Notes under the pieces: model-generated
Told to the model about the DNA's origin: nothing
Database searches by the model: none
The model's input: only the letters and a program-made list of their open reading frames with translations
In this document: in pieces, positions 1,609 through 53,830 of the stretch
Layout of the letters: every line of letters begins with the position of its first letter
Position numbering within the stretch: the first letter of the stretch is position 1
Made by a program: the position numbers and the translations under genes
Assembly: GCA_903813345.2 (NCBI GenBank)
Contig: CAIIXF020000003.1
Coordinates: 10,492,931-10,556,930, forward strand
Length of the DNA stretch: 64,000 bases
From: Owenia fusiformis
Lineage: Eukaryota; Annelida; Polychaeta; Sabellida; Oweniidae
Direction: 5' to 3'

Positions 1609-2106
1609 GTACACCCCCCTCCATAAGTTTGAACCGGAAGTGTTTATATTGGATAGCATCTCAAATCGGGTGTCGACTTTTGGCAAGCAGACGAAGATAC
1701 CTCAAGAAAAGCCGGAGATTATCGAAGATTGCCGGAGCTTTTCTTTGCAAACGAAGTTGGCCGAGAGTACCACGAATGTGAAGAGGACGTCTCTAATTGG
1801 TCAAAAATAGGGGCTCGGCATTCTCCGTCAGATTGAATCGGCAAAATTCGGTTGTATGGCTTACCTTCGGTTGTATGGCTTACCTTTGGCTGCATGGCCC
1901 AACCTCGATTGATTGGAAAAGATGCTGTCCCATATCAAATCTTGTCAGTGATTGAATCTAAATTTTGCTTATTTAGATTTCAATAATTTGGATATTTTTA
2001 CAAAATTGATCAATTTCATTCAATCGCAAGATATTAACAGGCTTTTATAAGTGATCTGAAATGATCTGAAACTTGCAATTATGAAACTTATGGAGGGGAG
2101 TGTACC
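1609..2106. mobile_element. 498-bp TIR element in the pseudogene 3' flank
   Basis: The ends are near-perfect inverted repeats of ~22 bp: GTACACCCCCCTCCATAAG... and its complement ending ...CTTATGGAGGGGAGTGTACC. The same site in the intact gene's 3' flank holds a 101-bp relative (21684-21784) with the same termini, so the insertion predates the duplication and the interior changed afterwards. The interior has three degenerate copies of 'CGGTTGTATGGCTTACC' at 1850-1910 and no intact ORF. Confidence 0.7.
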
Positions 2107-2143
2107 AATGATGCATATGTTACAATTCTTTGGAATTTCTTAA

Positions 2144-4786
2144 AATGGTGAGAGAACTTTCGGACTTTTTCTAAAATTGTCTGCCATCGTTGTGTTAAAT
2201 CAGTTTTTACTTTCTTGTTATATTCACGCATTTCATCAGACACTTTTCCTCAGATCAGTGTTTTCTAGTTTCTCGATCAGATCTTTGTACGTATCGAAGT
2301 AAACAATATGTGGCCATTGGTAAAAATCTGAGTACCCAGCCAATATTTTATGGCTTCGAGGTCTTTGTCATTATTTGGGTCTGAAACACTCTCTTGTACG
2401 CCAGGCATTATGGATTTGTCAGGGATTGTGCCGAAAACTGAACTCCAGGTTCGCTCGTTTAGGACATTATAGGTGAGTTGCCAACTAGAAAGTAAATCGA
2501 GAGAGGGGAAAAATAAAGGAATATTCATTCTGTATTGCTCAAACAGGCTCATCACTGCTGATACTTGATAAGGTACATACACAATCCCTCCATGGCTGGC
2601 CAGATCACTGTATTCGTAATGGCCATATAGCTTACGAAGTGGAGTCAGACTTACATTGGATTCTTTTTTTGCCTTGTTGAATTCATCAAGGAATATCTTT
2701 TCGAATCCAGCTTTGTGAACAGGACTAAGAAGATAACCCGGCCGAGTGGGGTTGTATTCAAAGTCAACATACCCACACTAACTTGGTAAAAGTGTTGGTG
2801 TGATTCCTGTAAAGTATCGCACATACTCCAAATCGTGCTGATTGTTTGCCCCTACCGTATTTTGTGGCTGCTCTGAAATACGTTTTAAATTCAGATTCCA
2901 AGCATTCCAACGCTCCTTCGTGTGTCTTCCCATCTCGAAACGCGTGGAGGGTAAAACAATTATTGATTTGTTGAATGGCATGAACATTTCGCACATCGAC
3001 GATGGATGGAAATAAACAAATGCGTCCACCTTTTCTATTTCAGGGTCATCCTTGTGTGTTTCATAAAACTCTGTATAGATGGCGGGTCTGTCCAAGTTAA
3101 TGCCATTCCCCTTATTCAAAACTTTCAAACCTGTTGCACAGGCTTTCGTGAGATGACAATGCCCAGACAGGCTCTTATCAATAAACGTAACTCCTATTGC
3201 TCCAAGGAAAGATTTAAGGTCATTTATGGGACTTATATGGAAATCGTTGCTCCATATTACAATTGGTCTAGTTTTTGCTGAAGTTGGAACAATCGTTGTT
3301 TCTTGAGCTTTGGCAGATGATGCGTTTGTACATTCTGGTGGTAATTTCTTAGATTAGATTTATTATATCAAGAATATTTGTCTTGGAATGTCATATTGGT
3401 CATAAACCCCACCAATGTGCTCTTTGCTGTTTTGGGCCACTGGAAACGGATGTGAGCTAGTATACTTCTTACATGATACACTGTCATGGCAGTAAAAGTG
3501 ATCTTTTGCTTTTGGCCAAACCATATTATTTAAAAAGTTCATATCCTCCAAGTACCCCGAACCGTATTGTGATGACAACTTGCTCCATGGTTTATCAAAT
3601 ATTTTCAAAATAGCTATAGGCTTACCTCCGAATAATCCACCACTTAGGGGAAAATTACCGTGACTAGGATGATCGCGAATACAGTGGAAGGGTTTGTCTG
3701 TATGTAACCACGCTTGTAGGCTTACTGTTGCAGCATCACGCTCCGCAAGTCGACTGTCCGCATCTCTTACTATAAACCGTTCGATTGTCAAGTCATCTGC
3801 GACCATGAAACGCCATATCATTGGTGCTAAGGTCACATTCTGTGTATCCAACGTATTGCGCCATATATGGTATATCTTTTGGAGTTTCCCCATAGACTCA
3901 TTGAAATAATCCAATCAGTCCTTTTACTTTGTATAGATTTCAAGCTATGTGTATAGTGCTCTAACATCGGTTTGTATTTGGTTACCAAAGATTTGATTAG
4001 ATCTGGTTTATTGATGGTTTTTAGATCACGCTCAGCAGTCAGAGCTCCTGATGTAATAGGAATGTTTGACGTGTAATTTGGAAAGTATAGATCATAGATC
4101 CAATGATCAACATCTGAATCCATTATATCTGGTGGAAATACAGATCCAAATATGTCCATGTGAGTTTTGTGAATAAAATAGGACATTTTTAGACATTTCC
4201 GGAACTCCTGTTTACAATCAAAAACAATCCCAACTTCTCTGTCCTTGCGATTCCGTAATTCATTCATATACACTTCTGCCCAGTTCTGTGATGTTGACAA
4301 AAACGTCTGATTATCAGTCATTTTGTAAATGTACGATGCCCCTGATAAATAGGCTATATACATGATATCATTGAGACCTCTACCTGTGTGGCCCCGATAA
4401 TCAATATCTGGGACGATTCGCAATGTTACATTAAACATTTTTGAACAATTTTCGAAAGATATTCATGATGACGTCATATTCAGTCACTTCTTGTTTTGGA
4501 ATAAATATTGCATAGTTGTATCTCTTTGAAGCAGCTTTACAAAACGAAGTGAGGAAATTTTGAAAAAACGGAATAGTTTGAGAGGTTTTTTGAAGGTTAC
4601 ATGCGACACATACCAGTGCTATATTCGGTTTAAATACTTCCCTGCTGTTTTCAGACTTAAAAATCTTTGAAAGTGCTCCGGGTAACTCAAATTGTTGAGT
4701 ATCATGATTGATATCCCTAACAGTAAAATAACGACAGCTACCTTACGTGGGTTCATCATTTTCTTCCAGCAAATGTTTTTAGCCAT
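2144..4786 (-). pseudogene. Broken paralogue of the 18.8-kb glycosyltransferase gene
   Basis: Read on the minus strand from the ATG at 4786, this parallels nearly the full 938-codon gene at 18835-21651 at high similarity. Lesions visible by comparison: an 11-bp deletion near 4452 (frameshift after the MNIF segment); a ~140-bp deletion near 3851 that removes about residues 325-371; a 1-bp loss near 3372 leading to an immediate stop; a Tyr-to-stop change (TAG) at 2778-2780; a 1-bp deletion near 2335; and loss of the native stop codon. Small in-frame insertions also occur near 3716 and 2562. The putative catalytic RDxDSR-type motif is still readable ('RDADSRLAERDAATV'). The N-terminal hydrophobic segment is preserved for ~30 codons. 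The protein cannot be made as one chain. It could only be transcribed as an RNA partly antisense to the intact gene. Confidence 0.93.
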
Positions 4787-5102
4787 TTTATCCTCCTATA
4801 CAGTTTAATTATTCGTATCCTTTCTTCTCACTATTTAAAATATAAATGTCTTTATTTGTTCTTTTGTTTGCTCGCAATGCAAAATTTATTTTTCTCATAG
4901 TCCAAAATCTAATAACTTATTATCAAAATGCCGTATGCTTGAGTAAATTGTAATTTTATATTATTATAAACGCTGCATTCAGTTCATCGTCTCTATCTGC
5001 CATAAAACGGAGATGCCTTTTACATATGACATCTCCAAGAGATGATATTGACAAGTGAAAAACATATTGTAAACATTGTAATCTAGTGCCAAATTAATTT
5101 TG
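4787..5102 (-). other. 5' flank shared with the intact glycosyltransferase gene
   Basis: The reverse complement aligns with 18522-18834. Shared blocks are 'GATTACAATGTT', 'TTGATAATAAGTTGATAAATTGG' (approximate) and 'GTGAGAAGA..GGA'. Homology stops at, or just beyond, the TACAGGGTGT terminus at 5102. The TATAAAA present upstream of the intact gene reads TATATTTTAAAT here. Confidence 0.6.
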
Positions 5103-8322: not shown

Positions 8323-10936
8323 TTTTTTTTTTTTAATAATCATTTATTTCAAATATATACTATACATACAATAATACAAATAACGTTTGACTAGGTTACA
8401 AGTAACATTATTGTCAAACTAAAAACTTTAATGTAGTTACATTCATAAATTTTTACTTTACAAAGAAAGATTCATTATTTTATTTAAAATGGTCAAGTTG
8501 TGTGCTTAATGTGTAGAGTTTGGTTACGGGTCCAGTAGGTCTTTGGTGGATTGCAAAAATGATACACTTGCTTTGATTATTAAAATATAAGTATTATGAT
8601 CAAAATCAGGGTGACCAAATAAAAGCATGTCTATTTTATCAGAAGAATTACAATCTAAAAATGCACTTAAGCAATCCGCCATATGGAGATCTCTAAGGAG
8701 TTGACATCTTGGGTTCGTGTATAGAGGGCACTGTAGAAAAAAGTGCTTTGGTGTTTCAGAGCGATGACCACAGGCACATTCTGGTGAAGGCACGTTGTTA
8801 AAATTATGTGCAAAAAGCTGGCTTTTCAAATAAAGATCTACTCTGAGTCTATTAAATGAAACTTCATTTTTCCTTTTAACATTACTATAAGTTATGAAAT
8901 TTGTACCATTGAAATTTTCAAAATGTGCCTTGATCCTGCGTTTAAAAATTGAAATTCGCTCACAATTTCTTATATCATCAGGTAAAGTATTCCAAGTTTC
9001 AATTGCTGCATAGAAAGTAGATTTCTCAAACCTTTTACTTATATCTAAAGGAATATTGTATTCTCTGAAAGCTCTTAGAGTTCGAGTTGGAATATTTCTG
9101 CAACCATTGAAAACTTGACTTACATATGGTGCTATTAAATTATGTCTGCTTTTGAAAAGAAAAGTACATAAATGAGATTTTCTTCTATCTGGTAACTTTG
9201 TCCAATTTAAAATATCTAACACCTTCTGAGTGCTAGAGCCATACAGAGCGCCAGTTATCAAACAAGCTGCATTATATTGAAGTCTGTCTAACTTAATCAA
9301 GGATAATTCAGGAGCACTAGAATATAAGATATCACCATAGTCAATTCGACTCAAAATGAAGGCATTATAAATGGTTTCTAAGTGTTTAGATCTTAAAACA
9401 TGAGTCAACCTTTGAAAAGGGTTTAGCAAAGCTTGAGACTGTTTTATTAATTCGTTAATATGCTCTTTAAAGGTTAGTTTTTGATCTAAAATGATACCCA
9501 GGTGCTTATGGGTATTTTGTTTATCTATTGGGTTAGTTCCCAAAAATAAAATTGGTTCATTTTGAATAACAGTTGTTGGTGAAGTGAAAGTCAAGTCAAC
9601 GGATTTTGAGGCTTTAAAGTTCATTTGCCATGTTTGGGCCCAGTTATATATTTTGTTAAGATCTTGTTGTAAATCAAGACAATTTTGTGGCTGATCTTTC
9701 GGATAGGGGCTAAAAATTGAAGTATCATCTGCATAGATAAACGTTTTGGATTTTAAATTAGTTGGTAGATCATTTATATAGATAAGAAACATCAAAGGCC
9801 CTAAGATGCTACCCTGGGGTACACCTGCATTTAGAAAGTTTGGTTCAGACAAATTTGAAAGTTTTTCATTTATCTTGACCTTAACCTGTCTACCAGAAAG
9901 ATAAGACTTTAAAAGCAAGAGTAAGTCATCTTTTATACCATAAGCTGATATTTTATGAAGCAAAAGATGATGAGGGACAACATCAAATGCTGATGCAAGG
10001 TCCAAAAAGATTGTACGGACATTGTTACCATTATTTAACTCCTCGTGGATACAATGAATAATATAGGCAAGTTGAGATGTGGTATTATGTAAAGGGAGAA
10101 AACCAGATTGGAGGTCATAGAAAAGATTATTCTGACTCATGTGATTAAAGATTCTATTATAAAGCACCTTTTCTAAGATTTTGGACATTGAATTTAAAAT
10201 TGTTATTGGGCGATAGTTTTCAATATTTGATTTATCTTTCTTCTTATGGAGAGGTATTATGATACCTTCTTTCCAAACCTTTGGGAATGAATGTGAATTT
10301 AATATCTTGTTAAACAATAGTGAAAGAGGACAGGCTAAACTGTTTGCAGAATAGAATAACATCCTATTTGTGATACCATCACTGCCACCCCCCTTTGATA
10401 AATCTAAATCTTTCAATAATTTTAAAACTTCTTCTTCACTCGTTTGTATACTACATAAATTATTGTTGCATAAAGTAGGAAACTCTGGTAACACTTCTGG
10501 ATGGACAATATTAATATGATTTTTCTGGGTAAAAAATTTGAGAAAAAGTTCAGCCTTTAGAAGTACCAGCTGATAATTTAGGATTTTCTAAATGTAAAAA
10601 AGGCAGTGATGTGTCAAAGGATTTACCTAGCAATTTCTTAAGAAGTACCCAATAGTCAGATGAGTTTGAATTAAGAATAGATATATTATCACAAGTATTT
10701 TCAATATACGATTGTTTAGCTTCTTTAATTAATTTGACTACCTTATCACTCTGTGTCTTAAATTTATTATAAAAGTCAGGATTATTTGAGCGTTTGAATT
10801 TGTGATGTAATCTGTCACGAATGTTGATCTCTTTTTTGATGTTAGGGGAGAACCATGGTTGATCAGTAGATTTGTGATTAATCTCAAAATTGGGTATACA
10901 ATTTTTGAAAATATCAAAAAGGCTATTTGAGAATCT
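8323..10936 (-). mobile_element. 5'-truncated non-LTR retrotransposon (CR1/Jockey-like)
   Basis: The element lies on the minus strand, with a 3' poly(A) seen as T's at 8323-8334 and flanking 8-bp direct repeats TTGAATAA (8315-8322 and 10937-10944). It contains the reverse transcriptase part of ORF2. The endonuclease and ORF1 are missing because of 5' truncation. About 190 bp of 3' UTR lie between the ORF and the poly(A). The crisp TSD and tail point to a fairly recent target-primed insertion. Confidence 0.93.
8524..10930 (-). pseudogene. LINE ORF2 reverse transcriptase, broken
   Basis: A 656-codon open stretch (10494 to 8524) carries the reverse transcriptase fingers and palm. 'ENYRPITILNSMSKILEK' is near residue 92, and 'AFDVVPHHLLLHKI' near residue 170. 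'GVPQGSILGPLMFLIYINDL' is near residue 224, and the catalytic 'YADDT' near 254. The C-terminal part has a CxC...H...C zinc-like motif ('CACGHRSETPKHFFLQC'). Upstream, the same protein continues in another frame from about 10930 (text such as 'DQPWFSPNIKKEINIRDRL'). One extra base near 10555 creates a frameshift and stop. Without the endonuclease and with this frameshift it is not autonomous. The motif order is that of the CR1/Jockey group; the exact clade is not certain. Confidence 0.9.
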
Positions 10937-14359: not shown

Positions 14360-14545
14360 AGGCTACATACAATAGTGAATATGTTAATACATATTGTAAC
14401 TTTACTATTACAATATAAGATACAAGCTGATAACTGTATACTCTTTACGCTATACACAAGCTAAAATTGTAACTTTACTGCAACAACATAAGTTAGCTGT
14501 TAATAATTGTATACATTTGATAATGATTTATGATTTGATAATGAT
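14360..14545 (+). repeat. Short array of the ~100-bp satellite
   Basis: About two degenerate units ('CATATTGTAACTTTACTATT', 'GATAACTGTATAC', 'TAATAATTGTATAC'), in the same orientation as the larger arrays at 21.9 and 32.2 kb. Confidence 0.7.
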
Positions 14546-18521: not shown

Positions 18522-18834
18522 ATTGTGCTACTTTGCGATTACAATGTTCACTTGGTAATATTATTTAAACCTTACTAGAGTCATATGGATGAGTCGACGA
18601 TTCTGTGTCACAGTAAATAGAAACGATAATGAATTCAGTGTATATTGATATGCTATATTAAAAGGACAAGCAGACTACATTATGATAATAAGTTGATAAA
18701 TTGGTTTGAGGCCCCGAGAAATTAATCATGCATTGCGTACAGGGTCATTAAGAATAAAGGAAAACATATTGATATTTCAAATATAAAAATGTGAGAAGAC
18801 CGGACATGGAAAATTAAACTATTAGTAGACAAAA
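18522..18834 (+). promoter_or_regulatory. 5' flank and possible promoter of the glycosyltransferase gene
   Basis: About 310 bp are shared with the pseudogene's 5' flank and bounded by the mariner-like TACAGGGTGT end (complement at 18512-18521). A TATAAAA lies at 18782-18788, 47 bp before the ATG. This would imply a very short 5' leader, so it may be coincidental. The start context AAAATGG (A at -3, G at +4) is favourable. No splice acceptor is needed to open the ORF. Confidence 0.4.
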
Positions 18835-21651
18835 ATGGCGAAAAAGATTTGCTGGAGGAAGATGCTGAATCCACGTAGAGTGGCCATTGTTTTTCTACTT
18901 TTAGGGATATCAGTCATAATATTAAGCAACCTGAAGGTTTGGAAAATACCAAACGTGACCTCCATGATCTCTACAATTCTACATGAGGACAATAGAAAAA
19001 ATGTATACATAAATAAACTGGATATAGCATTGGTATGTTTAGAATGTAACCTTCAAAAAGGAAATAGTTTGGAAACGATTCCGTTTTTAAAGAATTTTCT
19101 CACATTATGTAGAACTGCGTCACCTGGATACAACTATGCAATATTTATTCCAAAACAAGAAGTGTCTGAAGATGAGGTCATCATGAATATCTTTCGCTCT
19201 GATTTTGAAAATTGTTCAAAATTGTTTAATATAACATTGCGAATCGTCCCAGATATTGATTACCGGGGCCACACAGGTAGGGGTCTTAATGATATTATGT
19301 ACATAGCCTACTTATCTGGAGCATCGTACATTTATAAAATGACTGATGAGTCCACGTTTTTGCCTACATCAAAGAACTGGACAGAAGTGTATATAAAAGA
19401 ATTACAGAGTCGCAAGGACAGTGAAGTTGGGATTATTTTTGATTGTAAACAGGAGTTCCGGAAATGTCTAAAAATGTCCTATTTTATTCACAAAACTCAC
19501 ATGGACATATTCGGATCTGTATTCCCACCAGACATAATGGATTCAGATGTTGATCATTGGATCTATGATCTTTACTATCCGAATTACACGTCAAACATTC
19601 CTATTACATCAAGTGCTTTGAGTGCTGAACGTGATCAAAAAACCATCAATAAACCAGATCTATGCAAATCTTTGGTAATCAAATACAAACCGATGTTAGA
19701 GCACTATACACATAGCCTGAAATCTACACAAACTAAAAGAAAAGATTTGATTATTTCAATGAGCCTATGGGGAAACTCAAAGAGATATACCTATGGCGCA
19801 ATAAGAAACGCCCAACTCGCAAGGATGAACTTCCCAGCATGGACTCTTAGGATATATATCGAAAAACGTAATACTCAGCATAAGCACTCTAAAGTTCCTG
19901 ATTATGTTCTCGAAAAGCTGGTTGACTTGGGCGTGGATTTATTTGAGGTGGATACACAGAATGTGACCTTAGCACCAATGATATGGCGTTTCATGGTCGC
20001 AGATGATTTGACAATCGAACGGTTTGTAGTAAGAGATTCAGACAGTCGACTTACGGAGCGTGATGCGGCAACAGTACAAGAGTGGCTACATACAGACAAA
20101 CCCTTCCACTGCATTCGCGATCATCCTAGTCACGGTAATTTCCCCCTAAGTGGTGGATTATTCGGAGGTAAGCCTAAAGATATTTTGAAAATATTTGATA
20201 AACCATGGAGCAAGTTGTCATCACAATATGGTTCGGGGTACTTGGAGGATATGAACTTTTTAAATAATATGGTTTGGTCAAAAGCAAAAGATCACTTTTA
20301 CTGCCATGATAGTGTATCATGTAAGAAGTATACTAGCTCACATCCGTTTCCAGTGGCCCGAAACGGTAAAGAGCACATTGGTGGGGTTTATGACCAATAT
20401 GACATTCCAAGAAAAATAGATCTTGATATAATAAATCTTGAGAAATTACCATCAGAATGTACAAACGCATCATCTGCCAAAGCTCAAGAAACAACGATTG
20501 ATCCAACTTCAGCAAAAACTAGACCAATTGTTTTATGGAGCAACGATTTCCATATAAGTCCAATAAATGACCTTAAATCTTTCCTTGGAGCAATGAGAGC
20601 TACGTTCATTGATAAAAGCCTGTCTGGGCATTGTCATCTCACAAAAACCTGTGCAACAGATTTGAAAGTTTTGAATAAGGGGAATGGCATTAACTTGGAC
20701 AGACCCGCCATCTATACAGAGTTTTATGAAGCCTACAAGGATGACCCTGAAATGGAAAAGGTCGATGCATTTGTTTGTTTCCATCCATCGTCGATGTGCG
20801 AAATTTTCATGCCATTCAACAAATCAATAATTGTTATACCTTCCACACGTTTCGAGATGGGCAGACACACGAAGGATCGTTGGAATGCTTGGAATCTGAA
20901 TTTAAAACGTATTTCAGAGCAGCCACAAAATACGGTAGGGGCCAATAACCAGTACGATTTAGAGTATGTGCGATACTTTACAGGAATCACACCAACACTT
21001 TTACCAAGTTATTGTGGGTATGTTGACTCTGAATACAACCCCACTCGGCCGGGTTATCTTCTTAGTCCTGTTCACAAAGCTGGATTCGAAAAGATCTTCC
21101 TAGATGAATTCAACAAGGCAAAAGAAGTATCCAATGTAAGTCTGACTCCACTTCGTAAGCTCTATAGTCATTACGAATACAGTGATCTGGCCAGCCATCA
21201 AGGGATTGTGTATGTACCTTATCAAGTTTCAGTGATGAGCCTGTTTGAGCAATACAGAATGAACATTCCTCTATTTTTCCCCTCTCTCGATTTACTTTCT
21301 AGTTGGCAACTCACCTATAATGTCCTAAACGAGCGAACCTGGAGTTCAGTTTTCGGCACAATCCCTGACAAATCCATAATGCCTGGCGTACTAGACAATG
21401 TGCCAGACCCAAATAATGACAAAGACCTCGAAGCCATAAAATATTGGCTGAAGTATTCAGATTTTTACCAGTGGCCACATATCGTTTACTTCGATTCCTA
21501 CAAAGATCTGATCAAGAAACTAGAAACCACTGATCTGAGGAAAGTGTCTGATGGAATGCGTGAATATAACAAGAAAGTAAAAACTGATTTAATACAAAGA
21601 TGGCAGACAATTTTAGAAAAAGTACGGACGTTCTCTCATCATTTTAATTAA
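18835..21651 (+). CDS. Intronless putative type II membrane glycosyltransferase, 938 aa
   Basis: A single uninterrupted ORF, the only long intact one in the window. The N-terminus is short and basic (MAKKICWRKMLNPRR), followed by a hydrophobic span at about residues 16-34. This fits a signal-anchor with the rest in the Golgi/ER lumen. Seven N-x-S/T sequons (NVTS, NITL, NWTE, NYTS, NVTL, NASS, NVSL) agree with a luminal protein. Three regions can be seen. Residues ~60-290 carry 'GRGLNDIMYIAY' (148) and end near 'HWIYDLYYPN' (241). Residues ~310-530 carry 'RDSDSRLTERDAATV' (from 400), 'RDHPSH' (428) and 'GGLFGG' (440); this DxD-bearing pattern is one I associate with GT-A-like glycosyltransferases of bacteria, algae and scattered invertebrates. 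Residues ~560-930 carry 'SLFEQYRMNIPLFFPS' (about 801) and resemble a second glycosyltransferase-like half. The likely role is sugar transfer in the secretory pathway; donor and acceptor are unknown. The inverted pseudogene at 2144-4786 is its paralogue. Being intronless, it may be an old retrogene or have been horizontally acquired. The family name is inference. Confidence 0.85.
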   Translation: MAKKICWRKMLNPRRVAIVFLLLGISVIILSNLKVWKIPNVTSMISTILHEDNRKNVYINKLDIALVCLECNLQKGNSLETIPFLKNFLTLCRTASPGYNYAIFIPKQEVSEDEVIMNIFRSDFENCSKLFNITLRIVPDIDYRGHTGRGLNDIMYIAYLSGASYIYKMTDESTFLPTSKNWTEVYIKELQSRKDSEVGIIFDCKQEFRKCLKMSYFIHKTHMDIFGSVFPPDIMDSDVDHWIYDLYYPNYTSNIPITSSALSAERDQKTINKPDLCKSLVIKYKPMLEHYTHSLKSTQTKRKDLIISMSLWGNSKRYTYGAIRNAQLARMNFPAWTLRIYIEKRNTQHKHSKVPDYVLEKLVDLGVDLFEVDTQNVTLAPMIWRFMVADDLTIERFVVRDSDSRLTERDAATVQEWLHTDKPFHCIRDHPSHGNFPLSGGLFGGKPKDILKIFDKPWSKLSSQYGSGYLEDMNFLNNMVWSKAKDHFYCHDSVSCKKYTSSHPFPVARNGKEHIGGVYDQYDIPRKIDLDIINLEKLPSECTNASSAKAQETTIDPTSAKTRPIVLWSNDFHISPINDLKSFLGAMRATFIDKSLSGHCHLTKTCATDLKVLNKGNGINLDRPAIYTEFYEAYKDDPEMEKVDAFVCFHPSSMCEIFMPFNKSIIVIPSTRFEMGRHTKDRWNAWNLNLKRISEQPQNTVGANNQYDLEYVRYFTGITPTLLPSYCGYVDSEYNPTRPGYLLSPVHKAGFEKIFLDEFNKAKEVSNVSLTPLRKLYSHYEYSDLASHQGIVYVPYQVSVMSLFEQYRMNIPLFFPSLDLLSSWQLTYNVLNERTWSSVFGTIPDKSIMPGVLDNVPDPNNDKDLEAIKYWLKYSDFYQWPHIVYFDSYKDLIKKLETTDLRKVSDGMREYNKKVKTDLIQRWQTILEKVRTFSHHFN

Positions 21652-21879: not shown

Positions 21880-22410
21880 ACTTTACCTTTACAGAAATAA
21901 CATACGATATAGTTCCAAGAATATGACATGCACATGATAATATGTAAATACATATCATAACTTAACAATTACAAAAAAAGAGATAGAGGCTGATAATGTA
22001 TGCTTTTGATAATAGTGTAGAATAGAATATGACATCCACAAGAGAACATGTAAATGCATGTTGTAACTTTACTGTTACAATATAAGATAGAAGTTAATAA
22101 CTTTATACCTTTGATAATAATTCATAAATATAAAACATAAAATAGAAGTAAATAAGTGTACACTTTTGATAATAGTTCCCAGAATATAGTAATACAAAAG
22201 TTAATACATAATAATAATAATAATTGTATACCTTTGATAAAAGTTCTAAGAATATGACATCCACAAGAGAACATGTAAATACTCATTGTAATTTTACTAT
22301 TAAAACAAAAGATAGAAGTTAATTTGTATACCTTTGATAATAGTACTAAAAATATGACATACCCAAGCGAATATGTAAATACATATTGTAACTTTACTAT
22401 ACTACAATAG
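21880..22410 (+). repeat. ~100-bp satellite, left array
   Basis: About five degenerate units carrying 'GACATCCACAAGAGAACATG', 'GTAAATACATATTGTAACTT' and 'TATACCTTTGATAATAGTTC'. The spacing of GACATxCxCAAG between 22256 and 22356 is 100 bp. Directly continued, in the same orientation, at 32133-32835 after the 9.7-kb inverted-arm structure. Confidence 0.85.
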
Positions 22411-23576
22411 AAACAGGATCTTAAGAGGTTCTGGACAAATCATTTGATTCTGGACTTGACATATTTTTTTCCAACGAAATCACATCCAAGGGTTGAATTT
22501 TTATTGGATATTTAGAGAGCGAGTCCTGTATTGATTTCAATAAAAAGGTTAAAATAGAACGCTATTTGAGAGTTAATCTTATACTTTCATTACATTGATA
22601 AATTAAGGCAAATTCTGAAAAATTTTAAAGTGCATTTTTTATGAAATATTATCCAAGTATTTAGATGAAACGGTCTTATTTAAATACAAATCATAACATG
22701 ATGATATTTTTTCATAAAATATTTCTTCAAGAAATTCAATTGAAGGCTCAAGATAAAACGAGCTAATTTAGGTGAAAACCCTTACATGATGATGTGTTTT
22801 CATGACTTCTTTCATAAAATTCCATCAAGGGGTGAAAATAAAATGATCGAATTTAAGTGATTTAAGGATCACGAGGATAGGTTTTCTTGGATATTTTCTA
22901 TGAAATCCCATCCAGTGGTCAAGGTAAAATTTTTATTTGGTATATTTGGTCACGTGTTCGAACCCATAGAACCATATAGGAACGTCATTTTGAATGTTAC
23001 GTGATAAATCCATATAAGGCTTTTAGAACAATGTGGGGAAAGATGAGGGGAAACCCCTGACACCTGTTCACGATTTTATCCGAACGTTCATCGGATCATT
23101 TCGGTTTTTATGCACTTCATTATTTTACCGAAGTTTGCCGATTCGATTCGTCGTATTTCGGAATATTGGGGACAATTTTATACTCCATTGGGAGTATTTT
23201 TAATCTACTTCTTATTACGAAGATTCCCGAACCTTGTTCGGATTAATCCGGATTTTCTGACCTACTTCATCTACCGAGATTTAACGAGTTTACATTCGGC
23301 TCATTTCGGAATCCTGGTGACAATTTTATACTCCATTGGAGTATTTTTGATCTACTTCTCTGGATTTTTGATCTACTTCTTATGACGAAGATTCCCGAAT
23401 CAGTTCGGATTAATCCGGATTTTCTGACCTACTTTATCTACCGAGATTTAACGAGTTAACATTCGTCTCATTTCGGAATCCTGGTGACAATTTTATACTC
23501 CATTGGAGTATTTTTGATCTACTTTTTCTGGATTTTGCCCTACTTATTATAAGTTGACAGCAAGCAAATCAAAAAG

Positions 23577-23653
23577 TTCGCCATGAACGGGTTTCGATCG
23601 ACTAACCTAGAGAGTGGAAGCTAAACACGCTAGCCATGAGGCTAACGTTCACC
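23577..23653 (-). other. tRNA-like module with Pol III A and B boxes
   Basis: The minus strand reads an A-box-like 'TAGCCTCATGGCTAGC' (complement of 23629-23644) and a B-box-like 'GATCGAAACCC' (complement of 23589-23599). I could not fold a full cloverleaf, so it is a tRNA-derived relic or SINE head and not a tRNA. Confidence 0.5.
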
Positions 23654-23762
23654 TGTGTGAGATGATAAAAGTATCATATATTTATACCGAGCGTCAATTT
23701 AGAATGATCTTCGCTTTTGACTCCACTTAGATACAACTCGTCAGTTGTATCCAGAATAGGTG

Positions 23763-23822
23763 AACGCCTATGGTGTTAGTGAATAACCAAATCCCAGGCG
23801 AGTGGTTCGTATCCCACCGTGA
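23763..23822 (+). other. Second tRNA-like module, opposite orientation
   Basis: A D-arm/A-box-like 'TATGGTGTTAGTG' (23769-23781) and B box 'GGTTCGTATCC' (23804-23814) lie ~35 bp apart, within tRNA spacing. The anticodon arm is not recognisable. Both modules begin with GGTGAACG and face each other. Confidence 0.5.
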
Positions 23823-23865
23823 TATGTTATTTTTGCTTTATTAATACGACAGAAAGGAGCAAGGT

Positions 23866-25826
23866 GTAGGTTTGAAAACAAGACGTACGTTTATTTCAAT
23901 ACAGTTTTAGAAACATTAACCTCTGATAATTGAAGGATTTCCACTTCTGAAGCGCGACTAGATCTAAGAAGTTCATTAATCAAGACAGTGTAAACCTTTT
24001 AGATATATGTTAGACAATGTACACGCCCCGTGTGGAATCAACTAAATGTTACATTTTGGATTTCATTGAGATCCTGTCATAGTCCTAAAATTTATTTTTC
24101 TGGAACATCATTTTTTCAACACTGATACAAATTTCCCTGACATTTCCATGACATGTCTACAGTTTCAAAATTCCCGGACTCTTTGGCCCTTTTTGACCTT
24201 ATTTTAAAATTCTCTGACATTTCAGGCACTTGGAAAATTAAATCAAAACCCTGACATTTCCAGGTGTGTACGAACGCTGGAATTATTCTTAAAATATCCT
24301 TCAAACAAAAGGGCAAAATGCTATGCACAAATACTCTAATTTAGTTTGTATTGTAATGCGTTGTATTACATTGCATTGCATTGTATTGTGTATTTATTTG
24401 AGTGTCCGTTGACGGTAAAGAAGGCATTTAAAAGTTATTTGTGAAACTTAATAAACTTAATAAACAATACTTTAACAAAATTCTGTTATGGCAAAGTATA
24501 TTTCATTTTTTCTCTTGTTCTCTACAATCTGCGTTGAGGACACTGAAGCATATGTCTGTATTTTGTTGGTGGGGAACAGCGTATCCTATCGTTCACGGAG
24601 CAAATTCAACTCTCGTTCACGAGTACCTTGTTTTTGGGCTCTTGTCCCAAAGATAACGATTGTATAAGGTTGCATAATCAGGATTATGAGCTTTCATGTT
24701 CTCATAGTTACATCTGTTGTAAAACAAATCTTGTCGCAACCTCTGCGAATCACGACAGCATAACATTTGAATCACGTTGACATCATTGCAAAATTAGGCT
24801 AAATATGCTAAGTCAAGACGTTAATTAGCCCACGAAAGTTCATGGGTAACTTGAGAACTACAAAATACAACCAAATACTTTTCGAACGTACAATAGCAAT
24901 ATTTCTCACCTAACGTCTTCATAGTTTTAGGAACGTATTTTAAACGCATGATAGACAAATATATCAAGATACTATATCTGCCTAAATGAAGTTATCTAGT
25001 GTTTACAAAGTTTTGAAATATATTATATCCAGATCCATCAGAAATTAACTTATCCATTTACATTACTTTACTAGTTCTAGTATCTTGCATGACTCGTTTA
25101 TAAGAATTCTTTAATTCTACCTCGTTCCCAATACGTCCTCAGACAGACAAGAAATTGAAGCCACACCCGTTTGTTTGCGTGGCATATTTATACGTATACG
25201 CACTTTCTCTGATTATTGTCAAACAAATACATTTCAGGAGAAGAACATAAAAAACAAATGCCTGAAACGAATGCCGAAACATAAATCCCAAGTGATTAAG
25301 TATAGAATGTTTTATTCTTTTACGATTTGATAAGAGACCGAGACTAAGAAATTAAATGCGACGAAATATTTTGACAACGTAATTTGTATACTGTTTTATT
25401 CTTAAAGTTCTATGCGATAAATTATTTTATCTGTTTCAAAATGTTTCATTTTATTTTGCCTATATAAAAGAGATTGAAGAAGATAAGATAAACTGTTCCG
25501 TAATATAGATTGTGTTTTAATAACCTTTTTTTAGAATCACAATGTAAAATAAATCTCCCGTTCCTGCCATTCTGGTAACGCCATGCAATGGATGCAATTC
25601 AAAGTGAGAGAGAGATCTATGAATAACAGAATGCGTCCATGCCATTAATTTGGCCAAATACATGGCATGAAACTGACGTAAGTTTAAGTAAGCTACGCCC
25701 CCCGCTTTCTCTGGTAAATTATGACTTTATTTTTCGGAGTAATGGGTTTCGGACAACTGGGTTTCGGAGAACTGGGGTGTACCCGATTACGCTTTGCACG
25801 CCGCTTTAAAATCCCGATGTCTCCAG
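23866..25826. other. Interior of the long-inverted-arm structure, no gene
   Basis: No long ORF. There is a block of degenerate 'CCCTGACATTTCCA' words at 24120-24260, a TTGTATTGCATTGCA-type simple repeat at 24345-24390, and a fragment of the 45-kb element family at about 25118-25150 ('CTACCTCGTTCCCAATACGT', 'CCTCAGACAGA'). Confidence 0.5.
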
Positions 25827-25829
25827 AGG

Positions 25830-26300
25830 TAGTTTAATCCGGTAGCCGACAGGCGTTTCTTGCATTATTGAATACAAGCTAACCTTATATTCGCGAATGC
25901 AACTAACGCCTTCCGGCTACCTGATTAACCCAGTATAATATGACCAAGTCATTTAAATATGAATGGAATAGTGGCAGGTACTATTCGTATTGACATGAGT
26001 TTCCAGTAAAATAATAGGTTAATCCGGTAGCCGACAGGCGTTAGTTGCATTTGCGAATACAAGCTAAGACTATAATTTGGGAATGGAAGATTTCAGCTTC
26101 CGGATTAACCTACCATTCTATGGGCGACTCATTTAAATATGAAAAGAACCTGACAATATTCCATTGATATTTTAATGAATTGCCCATAAAATAGTAAAGT
26201 AGGTTTATCCGGTAGCCGACAGGCGTTAGCGGCATTCGCGAATACAAGCTCCTTTATTTCATAATTTGGGAAATATATATTTTCACAATATTGAAATAGA
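25830..26300 (+). repeat. 185-bp tandem repeat with hairpin core, ~2.5 units
   Basis: 'ATCCGGTAGCCGACAGGCGT' starts units at about 25836, 26021 and 26206, exactly 185 bp apart. Each unit is followed by a 'GCGAATACAAGCT' block. In units 1 and 2 the complement 'CGGCTACC' or 'CTTCCGGATTAACC' closes a long stem ('TTAATCCGG...CCGGATTAA'). 'TCATTTAAATATGAA' fills the rest. The third unit lacks the closing arm. Confidence 0.85.
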
Positions 26301-26339
26301 TGGTGGTTCAAAGTGGAATACATATCATACAAGTGTCAC

Positions 26340-29300
26340 AGATATTTTTAGTGCATATATGGTCTGTCTTTGCATGACTTTGTAGAACATATCAAAACCC
26401 TGGGATCCACAGGGTAACAGTAAGTACATTTCGTTAGATCTTCCGAAGTTCATGCTTCAAAGTTGTCAAAGTTGTAAAAGGGTAATCCTTTTTTGAGTAC
26501 GAAAGCTTACTTTTTGTTCAATAGCCTTTCCCAGCTGCTAATCTTTTGAGTGCATCGTGCATTCAACGAATTGTATTCACTTATTAACCAATCAGTGCCA
26601 GGAACAAAATGCACGCTTACTTTTTGGGCTAAGTTTAGTGTTTTATGAAGCATGCTACATACAAATGTTACGCTTTTGCTCATTTACTTTGAGAACTATC
26701 TATAGGTACACATTACCAATTGACTCCTAGATTTGAGTGAACAAGTACCTCGTATTTTTCATTTTTCGATATTTTGAGATTTGTTGGCTGATGAGTAACT
26801 TGATATTTTATGTCTAAATATATTAAAGTGGTTAATAGTAATAGTTTTATTGTACACCATAAACTGTTAACGTTTTAGAATTGGGACACAATATATATTT
26901 GAGTCTTACTCTAAACTCGGTGGTTTGTTTGTTAGTATGTTTTCTTAACAGCTCAATAACTGTTGTATTAATAAGGCGTTATACTATGAAAAAAAGATTG
27001 AACGATGTAGGAATAGGCAGAGGGAGTATCACACTACCCTACCACGTGAACACATTTAAAAAGAATACAGGGTACAGTTAAGTTGCAAATAGAGCGGGTA
27101 TTCTTTGTCCTTTTCCATAGGACTTTTCTGGTGATAGTGCGTTGCAAACTGCTCGATGAATCTATACAATGTAAAATCTAGTATTCCTCCAGAACTATGG
27201 AAATAAACAAAGGTCCTCCATTTGCAACTTCACTGTAGCCTGTATTCCTTTTAAAGAAATACGGGCTTCAGTATTGGGGTATAGTAGTTTGATTTTTCAA
27301 TATATCACTAATCTAGCTTCTTTCCTTGAAAAAACATGAGTTTTGATGTACGTATATCAAACATGGGCCACTGCACTATATTGAACCAGGGTGCCGGTGT
27401 TACATAATGTGATTTTATGGGCCATCATACAACCACCTCTTGCCCACTTTATTCATGTTTTGGATTACAGTTTATACACAATGCATAAACAGCATGAAAC
27501 AATCATTTCTACTTGTGGATTAGATTTGTATACATCTCTTTGTGAACTGAGTGTTATGTTCAATATGTGAAAATATCATGGACTTAAATTGTACTTATAT
27601 TTATAACCTGACCACATTTGCATATGTTCAACAACTGACTGAGTGATCGAGTTCATCAAACAATGTTCGTAATAGAGGTCATGAACTTTGCTTAATCCTA
27701 TTTCTGCAACTGACTCATATTATGCATCTTATTATATAATATTATATGATTTATTTTGATTAGCAGTGTCTCATTAGCCATTGGTGGCTCGAGGCTTTTT
27801 GGATGATTGTACAGATGTATATGTATGAAATTAAGCATGCGACACTTAAATAAAAAACAATACAATATTAAGCTTATAAACTTGCTGATCATATGATTTT
27901 AATATTTTAATACTACATGATACTCATATCAAAATACCAATGTATTTGTGAACAACTCTTACGTTTGATATTGTACGAATTTTCTGATTTGCTGTAGTAG
28001 TCGTAAATGCAACATATAACAATGTTATGTTACTTTGTGTCATATGAAAAATAAATTCGTACAAAGATGAGTTTTATTTCGTTTGTTATTCAATGTAGAA
28101 TACACGTTGTACATTATTTCATGTATAGGATATTGACAATAATCAGACTATCGTATTACAATACAGAAGAATAAAAGAGATAATGATATATGCATTCTAA
28201 TTTGAGATTGACATGCGTAAAGGTATCAATATTTTATCTAGTATTTCATTTTATCCCTCCCATCCCATCCCACCCGCTCATCAGCAATCCCAAGAAAATT
28301 CGTTCGGTGCTTTTAAATGTTAATAGTTCGGTTGAGTTTTAAAAATAAATCTTAAGCACTTTAAATCTAGATAAAATATTCATGATTTGATTGTGATTAT
28401 CATTTCTAATTATTACATGACGGTTCCATTACATTCAATGCGTATCTAATCCTCATAGTTTATACTCGATTTTCGACAGGTAAAGGTAATATATCAACCC
28501 TCGGTCCCTACTATTTCTCGTGTAGATATATTGCATAACTTTCTCAGATATATCCTGTATATTAAATACATTAAATAACATTATATATGTTAGTCTCAGC
28601 CTAGACAGTATATATATCAATTTTATTGGATAATGCCATGGGCTTTCCCACGATAATGCGTAAATTCGAATGAACTTGAAATGAAATTCAACATCCAAAA
28701 TGTGTTAATTTGATCATCCACCGTGTAACTAAAAGCATATTCATGGCCTATTTGCCTTAAAATACGATTGTGATTATGATTTCGAATTCTGTTCTCCATA
28801 TGTAAAATCTAGAAACATAACAGAGTTAAGTTACACGAAATTCAGCCAACTTGAACATGAAGTCTTGTCAATTTACTTAATCGTTGATTGATTTCTAGGT
28901 TTATTAGAATTAAAAGAACGAACGTTTCATCAAACGAGTCCTATATTCAATATCTATTCGTTGGGCCCATTCTTTAAATGTAACTATATTCTTTTAACTT
29001 TAAAAGTATCTGTTTAGTGCTACTTTAACATATATTCATTATTTTTATCCGCACAACAGTATCAAACGTTAATGCACAACTAGCCATGCCAAGACATGGC
29101 CACTACCCTCGTCCAAAGTAAAATACAAGGTCCTCATTCTTTAATGATTATGTTTCAATTGATTTAGTTTAGTGATTTAAATGTAGGAAAATGAGTCGCT
29201 GTGATGTCATATCTGGCGCAGCAATTTCAGAGTCACTGCAAAAAATTGAAACATCAGTCGGATCATAAGACTAAATAAAAAAGCTATTTAGGGATGAATA

Positions 29301-29925
29301 ACATTCGGTGAAATCCGTGATATCGTTATATCATTCGTTAATTGTCAAAGCTGCGCCCATTTCTCGGTGCAGGCAGATATAAGGCGGCCAGACTGGGCAT
29401 ACACAAAATGTATTGTATGTGCTCCTTAGGTTGCACTCGGGTGCTATCAACATCGAACACACACACGTTTAAGATACACAGAGATAATTAAGGGATGAGT
29501 GACAAAGGGATGTTAAAAACAGGTGGCTATTGCAATTGATATTTTAATGTAACTTTAGTATGTAAGAATCTTTTCATCAATAAAAATAACATCTTAGATA
29601 TTACAGCTACATGTACAATGTGAGTGTATTTTAAAATGTAGTACATAGCTAGTTCCATCTATCAAGATGTCTGATGACAAAAAGCTCAATTTTCCTTGAT
29701 GTCGTGGTCAATGGGACTTTAACACGTGAACTAATGTTTTTTATTTTTTTGTTTTAAAGTCACTTATAGCAAACCTAATCTAACAATTATCTCACTATAT
29801 GCTTATGACATATTCATGTATACGTTGTTTGTCTTTTTTCAAATCAACCCACGGAAATATGCAATACACCAAGTTAAAAAAGTGGTACGAATCATAAAAG
29901 CGACGTTGGGTGTTTCACTAGTAAT
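26340..29925. other. Interior, no feature recognised
   Basis: AT-rich, only short open frames without recognisable domains. No repeat family from elsewhere in the window was noticed. Confidence 0.45.
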
Positions 29926-29929
29926 TTTT

Positions 29930-30480
29930 ATATGAAAAATCTAGAAATATTACCCAAATTAAACTATGACTATTCAAAAGAAGACATTCAAATCTATATT
30001 ATGTAAAAAAATCAAAGGACGATTCTCGGTTTGGAGAACAGCCTCCTGGGCTAAAAAAAATTTCATGAAAAATATAGAAATATTACCCAAATTAAACTAT
30101 GAATATTCAAAAGAGGACAATTAAATCTACAAGATGTAAAAATAACAAATTGGTCTGAAGCAGGGATAATGCTCAAATAGACCGATTCAATAAAATACAA
30201 GTCTCGATTTGGGGAAAGAAGTTCATCAGTGTACTGCGCTAATAGTTTTTTGCGAAAAATCTAGAAATATTACCCAAATTAAATTATGACGATTCAAAAG
30301 AAGACATTCAAATCTATATTATGTAAAAAAATCAAATTTGTCCGAAGCAGGGATAATGCTCATTTAGATTGATGAACTTCGTTCTCCAAACCGAGAATCG
30401 TCCTTTGTCCGAAGCAGGGATAACGCTCAATTAGAGTGACGAACTTTGTTCTCCAAACCGAGAATGGTCTTCTATGAAAA
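29930..30480. repeat. Degenerate local repeat with 26-bp perfect inverted pair
   Basis: Three direct copies of 'CTAGAAATATTACCCAAATT' or a near variant lie near 29941, 30074 and 30262. 'CCGAAGCAGGGATAA' recurs at 30343 and 30409. A perfect 26-bp inverted pair ('GGACGATTCTCGGTTTGGAG' core) lies at 30014-30039 and 30381-30406. Non-coding. Confidence 0.8.
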
Positions 30481-30695
30481 AAGTTATGAAAACACATCAC
30501 CAGATCATGTAAAGCTGTTTTACCTAAAAGATCGTTTTATCTTCACCATTCGATTGGATTTCATGAAAAAATATTTTTATGAAAAAATAGGATTTGTAGG
30601 ATATCGACGCTCTAACATGTAGTTTTAATCACACGCAGGTATCTGGTTTTATTGCGTGTAGAATGTATCGATATCAGGACCGCTACATGCCAGTG

Positions 30696-32132
30696 ACCTT
30701 GCTCCTTTCTGTCGTATTAAAAAAGCAAAAATAACATATCACGGTGGGGTGCGAACCACTCGCCTGGGACTTGGTTATTCACTAGTACCATAGGCGTTCA
30801 TCTATTCTGGATTCAACTGACGAGTTGTATTTACGTGCAGTCAAAAGTGAAGATCATTTTGAATTGACGCTTGGTATAAATATATAATACTTTTATCCTT
30901 TCGTATCGGTTGCACGTTAGCCTCATGGCTAACGTGCCTAGCTTCCATGCTCTAGGTTAGTCGATCGAGACCCGTTCATGGCGAATTTTTTGATTTGCTT
31001 GTTGTAAAGATATAATAAGTAGGGCAAAATCCAGAAAAAGTAGATCAAAAATACTCCAATGGAGTATAAAATTGTCACCAGGATTCCGAAATGAGACGAA
31101 TGTAAACTCGTTAAATCTCGGTAGATGAAGTAGGTCTGAAAATCCGGATTAATCCGAACAAGGTTCGGAAATCTTCGTCATAAGAAGTAGATCAAAAATA
31201 CTCCAATGGAGTATAAAATTGTCACCAGGATTCCGAAATGAGCCGAATGTAAACTCGTTAAATCTCGGTAGATGAAGTAGGTCAGAAAATCCGGATTAAT
31301 CCGAACAAGGTTCGGGAATCTTCGTAATAAGAAGTAGATTAAAAATACTCCCAATGGAGTATAAAATTGTCCCCAATATTCCGAAATACGACGAATCGAA
31401 TCGGCAAACTTCGGTAAAATAATGAAGTGCATAAAAACCGAAATGATCCGATGAACGTTCGGATAAAATCGTGAACAGGTGTCAGGGGTTTCCCCTCATC
31501 TTTCCCCACATTGTTCTAAAAGCCTTATATGGATTTATCACGTAACATTCAAAATGACGTTCCTATATGGTTCTATGGGTTCGAACACGTGACCAAATAT
31601 ACCAAATAAAAATTTTACCTTGACCACTGGATGGGATTTCATAGAAAATATCCAAGAAAACCTATCCTCGTGATCCTTAAATCACTTAAATTCGATCATT
31701 TTATTTTCACCCCTTGATGGAATTTTATGAAAGAAGTCATGAAAACACATCATCATGTAAGGGATTTCACCTAAATTAGCTCGTTTTATCTTGAGCCTTC
31801 AATTGAATTTCTTGAAGAAATATTTTATGAAAAAATATCATCATGTTATGATTTGTATTTAAATAAGACCGTTTCATCTAAATACTTGGATAATATTTCA
31901 TAAAAAATGCACTTTAAAATTTTTCAGAATTTGCCTTAATTTATCAATGTAATGAAAGTATAAGATTAACTCTCAAATAGCGTTCTATTTTAACCTTTTT
32001 ATTGAAATCAATACAGGACTCGCTCTCTAAATATCCAATAAAAATTCAACCCTTGGATGTGATTTCGTTGGAAAAAAAATATGTCAAGTCCAGAATCAAA
32101 TGATTTGTCCAGAACCTCTTAAGATCCTGTTT
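30696..32132 (-). repeat. Right inverted arm
   Basis: Mirror copy of 22411-23865. It carries the same two tRNA-like modules. The plus-strand one has A box 'TAGCCTCATGGCTAAC' (30918-30933) and B box 'GATCGAGACCC' (30963-30973). The minus-strand one spans about 30738-30800. A perfect 11-bp stem with TCAT loop (GCACGTTAGCC/GGCTAACGTGC, 30912-30937) overlaps the first A box. Confidence 0.8.
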
Positions 32133-32835
32133 AGATAGCATTTGATAACTGTATATATTTGATAATTTTTCTAAGAATATGACATACACAAGAGCATATG
32201 TAAACACATATTGTAACGTTACTATAACAACATAAGATAGAAGTTAATAATTGTTTACCGTTGATAATAGTTCAAGGATATGACATCCACAAGAGAACAT
32301 GTAAATGCATATTGTAATTTTACTGTGACAATATTAGATAAAAGTTATTAACTTCAAACCGTTGATAATAGTTCTAAGAATATGACATACACAAGGAAAT
32401 ATGTAAATACATATTGTAATTTTACTATTAAAACATATAAAGATAGAAATTAATGATTTTATACCTTTTTGATACTAGTTCATGAATATTACATACACAA
32501 GGGGAAATGTTAATACATATTGTTATTTTACAATAACAACATGATAGAAGTTAATAATTGTATACCTTTGATAATAGTTCAAGAATATGACATACACAAG
32601 ATAATGTGTAAATACATATTGTAAGTTTACTATTAAAACAAGAGATAGAAGTTAATTTGTATACCTTTGATAATAGTTCTAAGAATATGACATATACACA
32701 ATGGAATATGTAAATACATATTGTAGCTGTACTGTTACAATATAAAATAGAAGTAGATAAGTGTACACTTTTGATAATTGTTCCCAGAATATAGTAATAC
32801 ACAAGTTAATATATAGAAGTTAATAATTGTATACG
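32133..32835 (+). repeat. ~100-bp satellite, right array
   Basis: About seven units. GACAT.CACAAG-type anchors at 32181, 32282, 32394, 32589 and 32689 are ~100 bp apart or multiples of this. It has the same orientation as the 21.9-kb array. Confidence 0.85.
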
Positions 32836-47000: not shown

Positions 47001-47500
47001 NNNNNNNNNNNNNNNNNNNNNNNNNNNNNNNNNNNNNNNNNNNNNNNNNNNNNNNNNNNNNNNNNNNNNNNNNNNNNNNNNNNNNNNNNNNNNNNNNNNN
47101 NNNNNNNNNNNNNNNNNNNNNNNNNNNNNNNNNNNNNNNNNNNNNNNNNNNNNNNNNNNNNNNNNNNNNNNNNNNNNNNNNNNNNNNNNNNNNNNNNNNN
47201 NNNNNNNNNNNNNNNNNNNNNNNNNNNNNNNNNNNNNNNNNNNNNNNNNNNNNNNNNNNNNNNNNNNNNNNNNNNNNNNNNNNNNNNNNNNNNNNNNNNN
47301 NNNNNNNNNNNNNNNNNNNNNNNNNNNNNNNNNNNNNNNNNNNNNNNNNNNNNNNNNNNNNNNNNNNNNNNNNNNNNNNNNNNNNNNNNNNNNNNNNNNN
47401 NNNNNNNNNNNNNNNNNNNNNNNNNNNNNNNNNNNNNNNNNNNNNNNNNNNNNNNNNNNNNNNNNNNNNNNNNNNNNNNNNNNNNNNNNNNNNNNNNNNN
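47001..47500. other. Assembly gap, 500 N
   Basis: Exactly 500 unknown bases, probably a fixed-size scaffold gap. Open frames spanning it are artefacts. Confidence 0.99.
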
Positions 47501-50640: not shown

Positions 50641-51637
50641 CAGTAGACACAAGAGGGGTGAGAAACCTCAGGGTTCAAAGATGACATACGCTTTAATGAG
50701 TCGATTGTTGATTGGTTTAAAACTATAGGTCAATTTGAAACTTTGAAAACCAAGATGGAGGGTAAGCTTAAGGTGCTATGGAAGTTAACAGGAAATGACA
50801 AAACAAAAAATGTCAAAACCATGCTCGATTTTGAAAATTTTTTGAACCAAGATAACAGAGTTCTGTTTGGACCTCCAGTCAGTTTAACTAGTTCCACATA
50901 TTATTTACATGACTGGGAACACAATGGAAATGGTCAGAATGACCATAAACGTGATGAAATAACCTTTTCAGCCCTCTGAAAATGTGACTGAAAAATAGCC
51001 AAGAGTAGGTGCTCAGGAAAGGTCACTGAACAGAATCTTTTCACTTTTTCAGAAAATGTGCCAAATATATTGCTCTAAATGATACAATTTAAAAAAAATT
51101 CATATCATTCTTAGAAAAAGAAAAAAAATGAAAAAACTGAATTTAAAATCAATCTATTTTCCTTTTAACTACAGCCATTATTGCTTCAGACGATTTTTTA
51201 AAATTTCAAAGATTGTATCATTTAGAGCAATATATTAGACACATTTTCTGAAAAAATCAAAAGATTCTGTTCATTGATCTTTCCTGAGCACCTACTTTTA
51301 GCTATTTTTCAGTCACATTTTCAGAGGGCTGAAAATGTTATTTCATCATGTTTATGGTCATTCTGACCATTTTCATTGTGTTCCTGGTCATGTAAATGAT
51401 ATGTGGAACAAGTTAAACTGACTGGAGGTCCAAACAGAACTCTGTTATCTTGGTTCAACAAATTTTCAAAATTCAGCATGGTTTTGACATTTTTTGTTTT
51501 GTCATTTCCTGTTAACTTCCATAGCACCTTAAGACAAATCATGATATATGTACTTCCGGGAAAGGAGGTGTGCGAAGGAGGAAATCGTATGTCATCAATT
51601 GAATCATGGGGTTTTCCCTCCTCTTAGTAGACACGAT
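50641..51637. mobile_element. ~1-kb palindrome (fold-back MITE)
   Basis: The arms at about 50641-51095 and 51205-51637 are mirror images; the best part is from GGTGCTATGGAAGTTAACAG at 50771 and its complement ending near 51530. The spacer is ~110 bp. Both arms keep a ~70-codon open frame (KVLWKLTGNDKTKNVKTML...) solely because they mirror each other. It is not evidence for a protein, since start and context differ. Confidence 0.85.
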
Positions 51638-53269: not shown

Positions 53270-53830
53270 AAGGTGGCATTCTGAAGTCTCACTTTCTTGT
53301 CATCACGATACCAGGTAAACCATTAGACGGATTTACTTCAAATTTTCACACATGTTACATGGTAAGAAGTTCTAGAGCTGATTAACTTTGCGGCAGCCAT
53401 CTTGCAATCTGGCGGCCATCTTGGAATTTTTTTCAGATAAATATTGTCATCGCAATTCCACAAAAAACACATAACAGATGTACTTCACATGTTCACACAT
53501 GTAACATGGTAAAAAGTCCTAGACCTCATTATTTTTTCGGTGGCCATCTTGCATTCTGGCAGCCATCTTGGAAGTTTAAAGATAAATCTTGTCATCACAA
53601 TTTCAGGAAAACCAAACGGATTTACTTCAAATTTTCACACATATTACATGGTAAGAAGTTCTAGAGCTAATTAACCTTTCGGTGGCCATCTTGCATTCTG
53701 GGGTCCATCTTGGAAGTTTTTTGGATAAATCTTGTCATTGTGATTCCAGGAAAACCACTTTACTGATTTTCTTGAAACTTTTACACATGTTACAAGGAAG
53801 GTTACATGCTACCTTTTATATTGATATAAA
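53270..53830 (+). repeat. Array A of the ~145-bp monomer family
   Basis: Four units, anchored on 'TTGTCATCxxxAT' at about 53299, 53445, 53590 and 53734 (spacing 144-146 bp). Each carries 'CCAGG.AAACCA', 'TTTTCACACATGTTACATGG' and 'GGCCATCTTGCA' words. Confidence 0.8.

Follow-up and report, generated by a model that had tools for sequence, protein, structure and literature searches.

A foldback-shaped 9.7-kb insertion in a satellite array of Owenia fusiformis, with inverted arms that diverge at a sharp step

How did a 9722-bp structure whose two ends are inverted copies of each other come to lie inside a satellite array of the annelid Owenia fusiformis, and why are its arms nearly identical in their outer parts and diverged further in? 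The structure (positions 22411-32132) lies in a stretch of 64,000 nt of contig CAIIXF020000003.1 (assembly GCA_903813345.2), here called the window, in which the only run of N is at 47001-47500. A first-pass annotation made from the letters of the sequence had singled it out as the best candidate in the window for an undescribed type of mobile element. That claim is not supported by our analysis, since the layout of the structure matches that of published foldback elements, Tetris above all. Instead, our results suggest that it is probably a non-autonomous foldback DNA transposon, present as one 9.7-kb insertion in a satellite unit, mobilized by a transposase supplied in trans and with outer arms that underwent gene conversion.

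Arms and the position of the identity step

The arms were defined by repeat finding, which returned them in pieces, together with MAFFT alignment and BLAST. The left arm (22411-23865) is 1455 nt long and the right arm (30696-32132, as reverse complement) 1437 nt, which bears out the ~1.45 kb previously proposed, and the two are 95.5% identical over 1458 aligned columns, with 41 of 1434 aligned base pairs differing. The whole insertion is bounded by AAACAGG...CCTGTTT ends within a terminal 18-mer, and by the phase of the satellite on both sides. Read from the outside in, each arm begins with ~0.72 kb of outer domain, continues with three tandem units (~147-167 bp) and closes with an inner domain of ~0.3 kb. 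In the left arm (forward strand), the outer domain spans 22411-23132 and matches the right arm except for one substitution (22778) and one indel (22463); it is followed by a tandem-repeat domain at 23133-23550, with its first unit taken to start at 23133 and its units spaced by 148 and 167 bp, and by an inner domain at 23551-23865 that is diverged from the right arm. In the right arm (reverse strand), alignment placed the outer domain at 31410-32132 and the inner domain at 30696-31011, on either side of a tandem-repeat domain (31012-31409) of three units spaced by 148 and 147 bp. The borders of the tandem units in both arms come from anchor positions, Tandem Repeats Finder (TRF) and alignment of the units.

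The divergence between the arms is a sharp step and not a gradient. A single change point was fitted by log-likelihood and compared with 1000 permutations: the best position falls after 23393, with a gain of 41.3 against a permutation maximum of 9.7, and none of the 1000 permutations reached the observed gain. Outside this point only 1 of 962 aligned bases is substituted, apart from the indel at 22463, which lies in a T run, whereas 40 of 472 are substituted inside it. The near-identical outer part and diverged inner part described in the first-pass annotation were thus recovered as a pattern, but their lengths were not (~0.96 kb and ~0.47 kb measured, compared with ~1.1 kb and ~330 bp), and the gradient of identity proposed there gives way to the single step. 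Four indels occur in the arm alignment, including the one in the T run and one of 21 bp (about 23343-23363) located ~30-50 bp ahead of the change point, and the two features together define a step zone at 23343-23393 of the left arm (forward strand). The step lies inside one repeat unit, and alignment of the units showed that both arms are collinear there. Inner divergence is uneven, with 6 substitutions at 23394-23458, none at 23459-23551 and 34 of the 40 from 23552 inward, within the inner domain.

A conversion tract would be expected to leave such a step, collinear within a single repeat unit; a junction of two elements would not. Conversion between the arms, as the first-pass annotation had proposed, is consistent with these observations but not proved by them, and the outer arms were probably copied from each other recently. 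The arms would first have drifted ~8% apart, after which the outer ~0.96 kb of one arm would have been rewritten from the other by gene conversion. A possible trigger is a break at or near one terminus, repaired by copying the opposite arm inward, and the copying would then have stopped in the tandem-repeat block, close to the 21-bp length difference. Such copying, run inward from the terminus, would make the outer part identical and could end at a length difference between the arms. Selection as the cause of the outer-arm identity was considered as well and rejected, by argument only.

Two other explanations bear directly on the step. The first is an assembly artefact, in which the reads of the outer arms were collapsed, giving a false identity, or the arms were misjoined. 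Near-perfect identity over ~0.96 kb is indeed a stretch that short reads cannot place, but the outer arms still differ by one substitution and one indel, the inner parts differ, there is no N run nearby and the satellite stays in phase across the insertion, so that we consider an artefact improbable. The second is a composite origin, also raised in the first-pass annotation, in which an older inverted repeat came to be enclosed by a younger, outer one. It would account for the two levels of arm divergence, yet it is disfavoured by the position of the step, which is not at a junction, and additions on both sides would have needed to end at the identical base; a composite is therefore very unlikely.

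Insertion into the satellite

A satellite of ~102 bp reaches both ends of the element in the same direction (forward strand). On the left it spans 21909-22410, as found by BLAST to the right array and by nhmmer units, and on the right 32133-32812, where TRF and nhmmer delimit 6.7 copies of the ~102-bp unit. The satellite units were mapped with an nhmmer profile in rotated phase, in which the consensus was built so that the right flank begins at position 52, and the left flank was found to end at about position 52-53. The flanks agree within about 2 nt of the unit phase, for which the chance was reckoned at about 5 in 102. The earlier description of a structure inside a satellite array that continues in one direction on both sides was thereby confirmed by BLAST, TRF and nhmmer, and since the flanks are nearly in phase, the 9.7 kb behave as one insertion into one unit. 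Of 15 satellite matches in total, one is the junction match that meets the element at its left end (its flank is included in the joined rows); this match and two others that were short were set aside, and the remaining 12 were aligned, all of which cross the junction phase uninterrupted. One of these 12 (1362-1631) adjoins the inverted second copy of a neighbouring gene, and being uninterrupted it represents a paralogous stretch that lacks the element, though not an exact empty site.

Alignment of satellite units for a target duplication, as the first-pass annotation had suggested, gave a partial answer: duplications of 7-10 bp are absent, but 0 bp and 2 bp (AG) fit about equally. Joining with no duplication leaves the satellite one base over its usual unit and a 2-bp duplication leaves it one base under, and the two fit alike because the junction falls where the length of the satellite itself varies. 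The AG match is weak evidence, since random 2-mers taken from the two arrays are identical 10% of the time. For longer duplications, 4 of 6 flank bases agree at 6 bp (P 0.085 for random satellite pairs), 2 of 7 at 7 bp, 1 of 8 at 8 bp, 3 of 9 at 9 bp and 1 of 10 at 10 bp.

The satellite also bears on whether the structure could be a one-off rearrangement, either host DNA duplicated in inverted orientation or a pair of single repeats lying in opposite orientation. A single copy is known here, and the window holds an inverted gene duplication elsewhere, both of which would suit such an event. Against it, both arms stop at an identical base and in almost the same satellite phase, and no satellite match was found at the inner edges of the arms, which makes a rearrangement of this kind most improbable.

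Affiliation with foldback elements

The middle domain (23866-30695) contains local repeats and, judging from frame lengths and Pfam, no visible coding capacity. The longest stop-to-stop frame in it has 83 amino acids (aa), below the mean of 95.9 from base shuffles, and 169 of 200 shuffles reach at least 83. Pfam was run on 8 of the 25 element frames of at least 60 aa (7 of the 18 in the middle domain and 1 in the left arm), none of which gave a match above the curated cut-off; sub-threshold matches appeared in 2 of the 8, the best with E 0.013 and 15.6 bits against a cut-off of 26.6. These results agree with the earlier report that the element holds no transposase. A ~125-bp piece of the right-arm outer domain (31717-31837) recurs within the middle domain, near the right arm, as a diverged direct copy at 30464-30589 (forward strand; BLAST), ~80% identical. 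Imperfect inverted and direct repeats (about 70-83%) at 25828-26265 give part of the middle domain a hairpin-like character and may belong to a small nested element. The inner domain of the arms looked tRNA-like by eye, an idea that was dropped because neither ARAGORN, which found no tRNA in the window, nor Rfam supported it; no Rfam family reached its gathering score, and the single match listed was a bacterial RNA at 21.4 bits against 55.

Terminal inverted arms of 1.44-1.46 kb, internally repetitive with three tandem units each, are the architecture of a foldback element, and a non-coding middle domain is that of its non-autonomous copies. The closest layout is that of the Drosophila virilis foldback transposon Tetris (PMC4079207), with arms of up to 1735 bp in which an outer domain of up to 866 bp is followed by tandem repeats and then by an inner domain, with a variable middle of no apparent coding capacity, and with no autonomous copy found. 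The likeness is one of layout as described in that paper. Tetris differs in its ~220-bp repeats (~147-167 bp here) and in its target duplications of 8-9 bp in complete copies and 9-10 bp in rearranged ones, compared with 0-2 bp here. Its authors cite the suggestion that the foldback structure may arise independently in different transposon lineages (PMC4079207).

Galileo, a P-superfamily element of Drosophila (PMC2775673, PMC3573991), likewise has long, internally repetitive arms of up to ~1.2 kb; within one copy the two arms may have different numbers of repeats, and exchange and conversion have been proposed. Tm1, a Mutator/foldback element of root-knot nematodes (PMC3169594), has arms that within one copy are on average 93.15% identical, and 100% identical in 5 of 61. 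Both for Galileo F and for Tm1, single copies are reported whose arms differ in the repeat block, as they do here; in those elements the difference is in repeat number, in ours in the length of one unit. Galileo has a 7-bp target duplication (consensus GTAGTAC) and its family has a P-type transposase (PMC2775673, PMC3573991), neither of which is seen here, and Tm1 has repeats of 13-15 bp and duplications of 8-10 bp in 45 of 53 complete copies (PMC3169594), which the flanks described above do not match. Because the 7-10-bp duplication of these groups is absent, membership in the Mutator or P type is not supported: the element acts like a foldback element but is not filed with either. A more novel reading, which we regard as unlikely, starts from the joining with no duplication or with 2 bp: large, gene-less elements of foldback shape would form a family of their own, and the transposase or recombinase moving them would be one that has yet to be connected with foldback arms.

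Polintons, or Mavericks, are another class with long inverted ends, and they carry a 6-bp target duplication and genes for polymerase B, integrase and capsid proteins. The long arms and the agreement of four flank bases in six would suit a Polinton remnant. The six-base duplication is imperfect, though, the element lacks any long frame, and none of its frames scanned gave a Pfam match above cut-off, results that a gutted copy would still fit; we consider such an origin highly unlikely. One of the Galileo papers also touches on the growth of inverted repeats in Polintons. A large non-autonomous element of the Helentron kind is likewise highly unlikely. The Cg_HINE elements of the Pacific oyster (PMC7492417) share with our element the tandem arrays they carry, satellite-like in their case, and they have no target duplication, where 0 and 2 bp fit equally here and neither can be proved. 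But they have subterminal inverted repeats, a central array and a short palindrome at one end, in contrast to symmetric, terminal 1.4-kb arms here with repeats in both.

For a foldback transposon, then, a transposase made elsewhere would cut at the AAACAGG ends, and the arm repeats might give it extra binding sites, as proposed for Galileo. The 18-bp terminus, allowing up to 3 mismatches, has two matches in the window, both exact and both at the ends of the element (shuffle mean 0.07). An exact match to this terminus in IMG/VR was taken as chance, because the stretch is 64% G+C and the similarity is limited to 18-19 nt. Two further words, a 21-mer from the arm repeat and a 22-mer from the outer arm, had no match in IMG/VR or in prokaryote contigs, which says little, since viral and prokaryotic collections are ill suited to finding a eukaryotic element. 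A literature search on molluscs met 12,017 papers, and among the 20 listed none contains the term foldback element, which is not proof of absence; the word foldback is also missing from the main text of a study of bivalve transposons.

Several observations weigh against this interpretation. That the structure is a mobile element is a plausible reading, though not a proved one, as the 64-kb window provides one copy, and a sensitive search of the window outside it returned a single 36-bp match, to the middle domain, and none to the arms. No transposase was met elsewhere in the window, where the Pfam look covered the two largest frames only, and the 7-10-bp duplication is not present. A single conversion tract cannot explain all of the arm pattern, given the uneven inner divergence with no substitution at 23459-23551, and a collapse of the outer arms during assembly could mimic conversion.

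The surrounding window and the place of the element

The gene beside the satellite is a long single frame of 938 aa (18829-21651, forward strand) with no Pfam family above cut-off. Its inverted second copy (2036-4941, reverse strand) is 92.6% and 80-83% identical in two blocks and runs in two frames, and satellite lies downstream of both copies. A further short stretch of the ~102-bp satellite (14365-14531) is found beside sequence common to 192-1324 (region 192-1490), and the satellite may travel inside another dispersed repeat. A 656-aa frame at 8524-10494 (reverse strand) has a reverse transcriptase domain (PF00078, E 1.6e-34) and resembles a long interspersed nuclear element. At 50767-51533 lies a 767-bp palindrome, 86.9% self-complementary, with ends CTTAAGGTGCTATGG on both sides; TTAA just inside both ends could be the target duplication of a hairpin element. 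TRF also found tandem arrays of ~145-162-bp units at 53295-53794, 58740-59029, 59346-59631 and 63513-64000. The second and third lie in a repeat of 746 columns (91.6%); the array at 53295-53794 matches these two at ~75%, and 63513-64000 at ~68%, in parts.

As a single copy, the element is an ordinary addition to the foldback-type elements. If other copies exist, it would offer a clean example both of an insertion that falls within a satellite unit and of copying between arms that ends sharply in a block of repeats, and the proposal made for Galileo, that long arms attract conversion, would become testable in another lineage.
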